Positions 15,116 through 44,759 of a DNA stretch of 64,000 nt are shown in pieces. Made by a program: the position numbers and the translations under genes. The stretch is from Alphaproteobacteria bacterium (GTDB lineage Bacteria; Pseudomonadota; Alphaproteobacteria; UBA9219). The stretch spans positions 1-64,000 of the forward strand of contig JABDAH010000005.1 of assembly GCA_013289265.1 (NCBI GenBank), in the 5' to 3' direction. The stretch's first letter is position 1; each line of letters begins with the position of its first letter. The notes under the pieces are model-generated. The model ran no database searches. It was given only the letters and a program-made list of their open reading frames with translations, and was not told the origin of the DNA.

Positions 15116-15187
15116 GCGTATGCCCGCGTAAGCGGGCATCCAGCTTCTGATTATTAAACAGATACCCGTCTTCGCGGGTATGACGCC
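15116..15187. repeat. Palindromic double-hairpin element upstream of the alcohol dehydrogenase gene
   Basis: Two hairpins lie back to back. The first (15120-15139) pairs ATGCCCGC with GCGGGCAT around a GTAA loop. The second (15162-15181) pairs ATACCCG with CGGGTAT. Between them is an ATCCAG-type junction and an AT-rich core; a TATGACG edge closes it. The architecture matches the element inside ygfZ at 43520-43624. It may act as a terminator for lpdA. An apparent earlier start for the downstream gene lies inside this repeat and is not credible. Confidence 0.8.
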
Positions 15188-42349: not shown

Positions 42350-43183
42350 ATGCAATTGACCATACCAGACACATCGCCCATGGGCCTGAAACAGTGCCGT
42401 GACGGCCTGTTTATGTATAACAAACATGACACCCTTATTGGTAAATCACTGGAAGCCTATGGCGAGTTTTCAGGAATGGAGGCGGACCTTTTCCGGCAAA
42501 TCGTCAAGCCGGGCATGGTGGCTTTCGACATCGGCGCAAATATCGGGGTTCAAACCGTCGGCCTTGCCAAGGCTGTGGGCGCGCAGGGACAAGTCGTTGC
42601 TTTTGAACCGCAACGAATTCTCCACCAAATGCTATGCGGTAATCTGGCGCTCAATGGGCTGACAAATGTCATGGCCTTAATGGCGGCGCTGGGCAGCAAG
42701 GTTGGCTCTATCGCTGTGCCGCCTGTTGATTACGCCAAAGACGGTGATTTTGGTGGTGTCGCTTTATCGCCGGACAGCGCAGGTGATGCCAAAAGCGAAG
42801 TTGTGCCTCTCCTCACTATCGACTCGTTCAATTTTCCACGCTGCGATTTCATGAAGATCGATGTCGAGGGGATGGAGCTTGATGTGCTGCAAGGTGCCGC
42901 GCAAACATTGGCACGCTGCAAACCTGCGCTTTACATAGATAATGACCTCGAATCTCAATCACTGCCTATAATTAGCTTCCTATTCAAACAGGATTATCGC
43001 CTTTATTGGCATTTACCCACTTTGTTCAATCCGAATAATTTTGCAGGTAATACCGAGAATATTTTCCCGGATCTGGCGTCTATCAACCTGTTGTGCATTC
43101 ACAGTTCAGTTCCAGCAACAATGACCGGCTTTGTTGAGATAACACGCGAAAACGCGGCACAGTATGTAGGGGCTTTGGGATGA
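42350..43183 (+). CDS. FkbM-family methyltransferase
   Basis: 277 residues. The SAM-binding motif DIGANIGVQTVGLA lies near residues 58-72, followed by GQVVAFEPQ and the FkbM signature FMKIDVEGMELDVLQGA. Such enzymes O-methylate sugars or small molecules; the acceptor is unknown. The stop overlaps the ygfZ start (ATGA), which suggests co-translation. Confidence 0.9.
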   Translation: MQLTIPDTSPMGLKQCRDGLFMYNKHDTLIGKSLEAYGEFSGMEADLFRQIVKPGMVAFDIGANIGVQTVGLAKAVGAQGQVVAFEPQRILHQMLCGNLALNGLTNVMALMAALGSKVGSIAVPPVDYAKDGDFGGVALSPDSAGDAKSEVVPLLTIDSFNFPRCDFMKIDVEGMELDVLQGAAQTLARCKPALYIDNDLESQSLPIISFLFKQDYRLYWHLPTLFNPNNFAGNTENIFPDLASINLLCIHSSVPATMTGFVEITRENAAQYVGALG

Positions 43184-44112
43184 CAGACCTTATCTGCCAT
43201 CTGACAAATCGCAGTATTCTGCAGGTCGGTGGTGATGACCGGCGAAATTTCCTGCAGGGCCTCATCAGCAATGACATCCATTTATGCCAGCCCGGCAAAC
43301 CCATATATGCCGCCCTGCTCACGCCGCAGGGAAAATTTCTGCATGATATGTTTGTTATCGACGCAGGTGATATTTTTCTGATCGACTGCGAAGCCGCCCG
43401 CGCTGACGATCTATTACAGCGGCTTAGCCGTTATAAATTGCGTGCCAAGGTGATGCTGGAGAATATAGGCGGGCAGTTTGACGTGTGGGCACATTGGATC
43501 CAAGAGCCCAACTCTCAGCTGTCATTCCCGCGAAAGCGGGAATCCAGCACCAGCGATAGCGAGCATATAAGTCTTCGCCCCGCAGACGCGCGGCACTGGA
43601 TCCCCGGTCACGCCGGGGATGACAATCTGGTTTTACTGGATCCACGCCTCCCAGAACTAGGCATCCGTATCATTTTGAAAAAAGGTGAAAAACCTGCCGG
43701 AGCAATTACTGATTTCTCTGCCTACGACAAGCATCGCCTCAAACTAGGCGTACCGGATGGCAGCCGCGATATGATCGTCGAGAAATCGACTTTGTTAGAA
43801 GGAAATTTTGACCTGCTGAACGGCATCAGCTGGACCAAGGGTTGTTACATGGGCCAGGAACTGACTGCACGCATGCATTACCGCGCCCTCGTCAAAAAAC
43901 GCATGTTCCCTGTAGGAATAGATGGTGCCGCCCCATCCCCCGGCACTCCTATTCAAATGAACGAAGAAGAAATCGGCGAGATGCGCAGTAGCTGTGATGA
44001 TGTGGGGCTGGCGCTTTTGAATGTAGAGAAAGCGCACATTTCTTTAAGTGAATCCCTATTACTGACTTGTGCCGAAAGTCGGGTACACATAATTAAATCA
44101 CCTCTGCTGTGA
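43180..44112 (+). CDS. ygfZ: Folate-binding iron-sulfur maturation protein YgfZ (carries an in-frame repeat)
   Basis: 310 residues of the GcvT/YgfZ fold. It has GDDRRNFLQGLISNDI at the start and the hallmark KGCYMGQELTARMHYRA with its conserved Cys near residues 220-236. YgfZ uses tetrahydrofolate to help build or repair Fe-S clusters. Residues about 114-148 (including SFPRKRESS and HWIPGHAGDD) come from a 105-bp palindromic element and are absent from the conserved family fold. The flanking sequence VWAHWI and LDPRLPELG would otherwise be close neighbours. Confidence 0.92.
   Translation: MTDLICHLTNRSILQVGGDDRRNFLQGLISNDIHLCQPGKPIYAALLTPQGKFLHDMFVIDAGDIFLIDCEAARADDLLQRLSRYKLRAKVMLENIGGQFDVWAHWIQEPNSQLSFPRKRESSTSDSEHISLRPADARHWIPGHAGDDNLVLLDPRLPELGIRIILKKGEKPAGAITDFSAYDKHRLKLGVPDGSRDMIVEKSTLLEGNFDLLNGISWTKGCYMGQELTARMHYRALVKKRMFPVGIDGAAPSPGTPIQMNEEEIGEMRSSCDDVGLALLNVEKAHISLSESLLLTCAESRVHIIKSPLL
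43520..43624. repeat. 105-bp palindromic element inserted in frame in ygfZ
   Basis: The element starts TGTCATTCCCGC and ends GGGGATGACA, so its ends are inverted copies. The left hairpin pairs ATTCCCGC with GCGGGAAT around GAAA; the right hairpin pairs ATCCCCGG with CCGGGGAT around TCACG. The length is exactly 35 codons and no stop codon is introduced. The left hairpin fits the ATTCCC-N8-GGGAAT layout known from Neisseria dRS3 repeats. A related copy lies at 15116-15187. Confidence 0.9.
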
Positions 44113-44180
44113 ATTAGATCATAACCCTCCCGAAATTCCGCACTTACATTATTGATAACAATAATGAAGGAGGAGGTTTT

Positions 44181-44759
44181 ATGGAATTGGTATCTGCCAC
44201 AACTCAACCTGCACAACTGCAAGCACCTGCGATTGAAGCCGATAACCCTCAGATCCCTGTCAGACCCCTAACCAGCGCGGATGCCTCAGCCTTCCGTTCC
44301 CTGCGGCTTGAATCTCTGGAAAAAGATGGACGCTTTTTTAAGAAGCCTGACGATGACGAAACCCGATTTACACTTGCACAATGGCAGGAACGCGCCAAAG
44401 AGACTCCCGATCAATGCTGGTTCGGTATGTTTGCCCATAATGACATGGTTGGTATCGCGCGTATTTACAAAACGGCGGATGACACAGCCGAAGGCGGCTC
44501 ACTCTATGTAATACCGGATCAACGTCAACATGGGGTCGCTGACCAGTTTGTTCATGCCGCCTTAGACTGGCTTAAACCTAAAACGGAGATCAAGTTTCTC
44601 GAATTCCACGCCCGCGAAGACAATATGCCTTCCCGGCATCTTTGCGAGGTTCATCTGAAAGGAGAAAAAATAGAAACGGTCGATGCTACATATGGCGATG
44701 GCAGCTCCGGCCCGGCGTTTTTATATCGCATCCCTGTTGAACATCTTCGACACGGCTAA
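44181..44759 (+). CDS. GNAT-family N-acetyltransferase
   Basis: 192 residues preceded by a very strong GGAGGAGG ribosome site. It has the GNAT order: PVRPLTSADASAFRSLRLESL at the start, VGIARIYK strand, then the acetyl-CoA-binding region PDQRQHGVADQFVHAAL, in which the usual Q/RxxGxG/A loop is recognisable. The acceptor is unknown. It stands alone between ygfZ and the convergent LprI-like gene. Confidence 0.8.
   Translation: MELVSATTQPAQLQAPAIEADNPQIPVRPLTSADASAFRSLRLESLEKDGRFFKKPDDDETRFTLAQWQERAKETPDQCWFGMFAHNDMVGIARIYKTADDTAEGGSLYVIPDQRQHGVADQFVHAALDWLKPKTEIKFLEFHAREDNMPSRHLCEVHLKGEKIETVDATYGDGSSGPAFLYRIPVEHLRHG

Follow-up and report, generated by a model that had tools for sequence, protein, structure and literature searches.

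A head-to-head pair of CGTC-tagged REP hairpins in frame within the ygfZ gene of an uncultivated alphaproteobacterium

Positions 43520-43624 of the 64,000-nucleotide stretch of DNA analysed here (the window) hold two CGTC-tagged REP hairpins arranged head to head; they lie in frame in ygfZ, and the gene is intact. The pair is very probably a mobile, non-autonomous CGTC REP dimer that was inserted in a tolerant surface loop of YgfZ and is carried as a translated passenger, most likely with little or no effect on the protein. Its translation, its neutrality and its movement by an enzyme are parts of this explanation that we infer.

The element and its host gene

The features of this part of the window are as follows.

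43180 to 44112, forward strand: ygfZ, IBA57/CAF17-like Fe-S cluster assembly protein, 310 aa, intact
43520 to 43624, forward strand: head-to-head CGTC REP dimer, TGTC...GACA tag to tag, 105 nt, in frame within ygfZ
43520 to 43547, forward strand: left unit, TGTC-ATTCCCGC-GAAA-GCGGGAAT-CCAG, 8 bp stem, 4 nt loop; CGTC-1 layout, dRS3 pattern; 44.5 bits
43548 to 43595, forward strand: dimer spacer, no match elsewhere in the genome (the other two search hits cover query positions 2-27 only)
43596 to 43624, reverse strand: right unit, TGTC-ATCCCCGG-CGTGA-CCGGGGAT-CCAG, 8 bp stem, 5 nt loop; CGTC-2 layout; 30.4 bits

The stem, loop and CCAG tail of both units agree with the CGTC REP definition. A TGTC tag is present at both outer ends of the dimer, and most other copies carry CGTC or TGTC. 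The 105-base element begins with TGTCATTCCCGC, ends with GGGGATGACA and folds at -48.4 kcal/mol (z = -4.6 against dinucleotide shuffles). It was matched in the 64 kb window by a covariance model of the unit at 43521-43547 (E = 2.6e-7) and 43596-43623 (E = 2.8e-4), E-values that are not independent of the window, since the model consists of nine units taken partly from the window's own sequences. Among the own-genome loci retrieved, no second copy of the right unit was found, and an Rfam search of 43000-44200 gave no match. In the ygfZ frame the element reads LSFPRKRESSTSDSEHISLRPADARHWIPGHAGDDN, and the other two forward frames contain stops; an example of a peptide that would span the insert is ESSTSDSEHISLRPADAR. 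The first-pass annotation had described a repeat at these coordinates with two hairpins, inverted ends and an open frame, all of which hold, and had likened the left hairpin to the Neisseria dRS3 layout, which it matches as ATTCCC(N8)GGGAAT.

The gene was identified as ygfZ by TIGR03317 (NCBIfam, CAF17-like protein YgfZ), with 81.4 bits against a cut-off of 49, and the Pfam families PF25455 and PF01571 were found in its product. Its start overlaps, as ATGA, an FkbM-type methyltransferase gene upstream. The conserved motifs on either side of the insert are intact, as had been proposed; the KGCYMGQE motif is kept, and so is the DPRL motif beyond the insert. Within the family, ygfZ was observed in only 7 of 24 genomes, although completeness reaches 99-100% in several of the genomes without it.

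The window's genome (G000) is a 1.49 Mb draft of 61 contigs, 64% complete, and the sole congener compared is a sister species (G001), the two assemblies of the genus being 64-69% complete. Such a fragmented draft might suggest an assembly artefact or a pseudogene, an explanation that is very improbable: another species, assembled independently, has an element at the same place, the reading frame is unbroken, and ygfZ outside the insert is under strong purifying selection. With the insert removed, the comparison between the window species and its sister gave dN 0.24 and dS 2.3 (dN/dS about 0.1); inside the insert, pN was 0.44 and pS 0.55.

An AlphaFold model of YgfZ, with 43 relatives as input, had a mean pLDDT of 87.6 and a TM-score of 0.80 against human IBA57 (6qe3). 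Most of the core exceeds a pLDDT of 90, and residues 111-150, between strands 100-107 and 150-153, drop to about 50-56. The insert is thus predicted to lie in a loop modelled with low confidence, within an IBA57/YgfZ fold that is confident elsewhere. From A104 to D154 this loop has 49 residues in the window's YgfZ and 12-37 in the 43 relatives, and with a loop so variable in length the claim of a clean insertion of 35 residues stands for its DNA boundaries but is not provable to the residue. Many YgfZ proteins across the class have a 29-residue loop at this position, as might be expected if the residues were an ancestral part of the loop and nothing had been inserted. This reading is already contradicted and scarcely credible, as YgfZ proteins of the family have short loops with unrelated residues, close relatives lack the residues in question, and the DNA is a repeat present elsewhere in the genome.

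Copies in the same genome and in related genomes

With the covariance model, applied to search hits and the stretches extracted around them, about 36 units were found in the window's genome, grouped into about 25 sites; the count comes from 150 of 480 first-look candidates scored and may be low. The copies are not only intergenic, a placement that the first-pass annotation had named, together with a silent ygfZ, as speaking against its reading. Three sites lie in frame within conserved genes, namely ygfZ, trpE (C1:13165) and prmA (C4:43914-43989), and more were found in the sister species. Most of the remaining sites have no long ORF spanning them. The window contains one further dimer.

15117 to 15185, no strand assigned: second dimer of the same type, 69 nt, intergenic

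Its neighbours are a lipoamide-dehydrogenase-like gene, whose stop codon it directly follows, and an alcohol-dehydrogenase-like gene, which it precedes; both were named by inspection. ORFs such as one of 201 aa over C5:68336 and an aroQ-like one of 192 aa at C24:17606 were not counted as intragenic sites, since the ORF seems to be antisense or probably starts downstream of the element. A CGTC unit also occurs just upstream of the same DUF2155 gene in both species (near position 1501 of locus L043, G000:C24:14197, and near position 668 of locus L192, G001:C67; the Pfam check covered G000). In G000, an ATG adjoining this unit could be the start codon, in which case the signal peptide would begin with residues encoded by the unit.

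Units were present in 22 of the 24 genomes of the family, some of which have about 140, and in 31 of 142 genomes of a class-wide sample. Those classified in the sister species amount to 115 units, forming 33 head-to-head dimers and 49 single units. Six in-frame sites were found there in recognised genes: ygfZ, lpxK, nuoG (twice), sufD and a livM-like permease gene. A sample of 46 sites from five other genomes added one more, in sufD of G010, which brings the in-frame CGTC insertions in recognised genes of the genomes sampled to ten (three, six and one). A 743 aa ORF of G020 (L335) matched neither Pfam nor NCBIfam and was left out as a recognised gene. The nuoG gene of the sister species (L186:1866-4142) carries its two REP insertions separately, both in frame. 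Several of the genes hit make or carry Fe-S clusters (ygfZ, sufD of G001 and G010, nuoG), in numbers too small to be set against chance. At 80 other loci no clear CGTC unit was found within ygfZ, the units of L225 and L236 adjoining the gene, and no insert was seen in YgfZ of 28 small-genome alphaproteobacteria, none of them known to be Rickettsia, in which a counterpart of Rickettsia RJP_0560 was looked for.

Each of the three frames of the unit is used in one or another of the genes hit (SFPRKRES, VIPAK, RHAR), and six intragenic copies measure 105, 78, 90, 68, 73 and 82 nt from tag to tag. The element is therefore not characterised by divisibility by three; what can be observed are the insertions that survived. 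As all three frames are used and the lengths are not always divisible by three, no particular peptide seems to be selected.

The same loops in different species

In both species of the genus the YgfZ loop contains a CGTC dimer, and in each 15 nt separate its right edge from the DPRL codons. The left edges are near-identical, and the left units stand in the same reading phase and share 24 of 27 positions. The spacers of the two dimers are unalignable and the encoded peptides differ; the unit of the sister species is nearest to the CCGGC/GCCGG subtype, which is common in that genome, and the unit of the window belongs to the CCCGC/GCGGG subtype. Outside their inserts, comparison of the congeners gave dN 0.09 and dS 1.4 for trpE, and dN 0.19 and dS 2.4 for prmA. 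Like ygfZ, these are functional genes whose silent sites are near saturation. With silent sites saturated, a palindrome that was simply inherited and not maintained should have been lost, yet the hairpins are intact in both species, which counts against the passenger view inasmuch as plain neutral inheritance would not predict it. The kept palindrome is explained by repeated insertion at the YgfZ loop or by conversion by other copies, and two species cannot separate these.

The intact palindrome at such divergence, together with the shared right edge and unit phase, could also mean that the insertion has been put to use, an mRNA hairpin or a basic peptide tuning the synthesis, folding or interactions of YgfZ and being kept for that. 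We consider this improbable. The spacers, stem subtypes and peptides that differ between the two species argue against it, as do the other frames in which other genes read the unit and the distant YgfZ proteins that lack an insert.

Other loops, too, contain palindromes in more than one species. The TrpE linker, which connects the N-terminal and the chorismate-binding domain, has a CGTC dimer in the window's genome, a palindrome of the CTCTCCCGC/GCGGGAGAG type in the sister species (L109) and one of the CCCCTCCC type in G020 (L112), whose trpE reading has one TGA; three palindrome families thus occur in this linker across three genomes. The loop of PrmA, short in most relatives, is occupied by two: a CGTC dimer in the window's genome and, in G014 (L144), a different and longer palindrome of roughly 55 residues. 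At least in TrpE and PrmA, the different palindromes found in one loop favour the view that permissive sites were entered repeatedly.

For ygfZ, the passenger explanation contains a question of origin: whether one insertion in the ancestor of the genus was inherited and then diverged or was overwritten by other copies, or whether the permissive loop was entered repeatedly. We give the single ancestral insertion somewhat less than an even chance. The identical right edge, the near-identical left edge and the common phase speak for it. Against it are the 24 of 27 identities between left units in a gene whose dS of 2.3 is saturated, the CCGGC/GCCGG-like unit of the sister as opposed to CCCGC/GCGGG in the window, and the repeated hits in TrpE and PrmA. 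The ygfZ data could be reconciled by a single insertion that was later converted by other copies.

A more far-reaching proposal is that the YgfZ loop, the TrpE linker and the PrmA loop are true hot spots, entered repeatedly and in frame by unrelated palindrome families, and that across the lineage disordered segments continue to be added to core enzymes, driven by some mobilising activity or by conversion between copies. This is put forward tentatively, as a rather doubtful possibility.

Mobility and proposed course of events

Returning to the dimer as a mobile passenger, a Y1_Tnp transposase was searched for with PF01797, the only model used, and none was found in the window's genome or that of the sister species (64-69% complete), nor in the unit-rich genomes G010, G012 and G020. 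For target-site duplication, 27 dimers of the sister species and six of the window's genome were compared, and their flanks scored no better than shuffled pairs. As neither a transposase candidate nor a target-site duplication was found, the argument for mobility is drawn from copy number and from the presence of copies at many positions.

CGTC REP dimers would be small non-autonomous repeats multiplying in many alphaproteobacterial genomes. One of these would have entered the ygfZ coding sequence where it encodes a surface loop that joins two beta strands. Selection would remove most copies that land in genes; this one may have survived because its net length kept the frame, it contains no stop, and the loop can accommodate some 35 additional disordered residues, which would then be translated along with the rest of YgfZ.

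Comparison with known repeat families

CGTC REPs have been defined by a CGTC or TGTC tag, an 8-9 bp stem opening with complementary A/T, a loop of 4 nt in family 1 and 5 nt in family 2, and a CCA tail, and occur mostly as head-to-head dimers (Di Nocera 2013, PMC3733652). The window's element agrees with CGTC-1 and CGTC-2 in its tag, its 8 bp stem starting with AT, its loops of 4-5 nt, its CCA tail and its head-to-head arrangement. The copies studied here are likewise mostly near the 3' ends of genes and sometimes in frame within them. The published families have no dedicated transposase; here the search with PF01797, which included the two 64-69% complete assemblies of the genus, gave no hit. 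The window dimer differs in joining a CGTC-1-like to a CGTC-2-like unit, and its host is an uncultivated alphaproteobacterium.

The likeness to Rickettsia palindromic elements (RPEs) and the presence of a palindromic insertion in an open frame, both suggested by the first-pass annotation, are supported. That annotation had treated RPEs and dRS3 as separate comparisons and had taken the dRS3 family to be unusual inside coding sequence. Neither point can be kept, since CGTC-1 includes both dRS3 of Neisseria and RPE-6 of Rickettsia conorii, and in-frame intragenic CGTC copies have already been reported for several species (PMC3733652).

RPE-4, RPE-6 and RPE-7 resemble the window element in lying in frame in conserved enzymes, in an exposed position (seen here in a predicted model, for YgfZ only), in an ATGAC motif and in the occurrence of different element groups near one site in orthologues. 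In Rickettsia, inserts of these three groups are solvent-exposed and orthologues carry different groups near the same site (PMC3767692). As a precedent for a translated insert, a guanylate kinase bearing an RPE is produced in Rickettsia as an active enzyme whose affinity for its substrate is altered (reviewed in PMC2229807). RJP_0560 of Rickettsia japonica, annotated as 'putative aminomethyltransferase' and listed as an RPE-4 target (PMC3767692, Table 1), may be a YgfZ-type protein. The nearest relatives of the window's host are alphaproteobacterial bins, none labelled Rickettsia, and for equating RPE-6 with CGTC-1 we follow PMC3733652.

The 20 bp dRS3 pattern, ATTCCC(N8)GGGAAT (PMC3898611), fits the left unit and not the right one. 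Neisseria dRS3 occurs mostly in intergenic arrays and in mosaics with RS elements, whereas the window has a single dimer within a gene and one other dimer. REPIN/RAYT systems (GTAG REPs) share the paired, inverted REPs dispersed through the genome; the GTAG tag is absent here, and PF01797 had no hit in the window's own genome, which is incomplete, or in the sister species. Unlike MITEs with target-site duplication, dimers of the window type showed no signal of flanking direct repeats.

Implications

The element family and its occurrence within genes are already described. The present analysis adds a further host lineage with ten in-frame CGTC insertions in recognised genes, and it shows different palindromes recurring in one loop of TrpE and one of PrmA. 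In database proteins, strings like SFPRKRES, VIPAKAGIQ and WIPAFAGMT can be translated REPs and not conserved motifs. Rickettsia is the best-known source of palindromes that encode protein; a 2013 study there weighed hot spots with repeated insertion against one ancient, diverged insertion, and hot spots were not fully excluded (PMC3767692). The bacterial family studied here provides another test case for repeated as opposed to single insertion.
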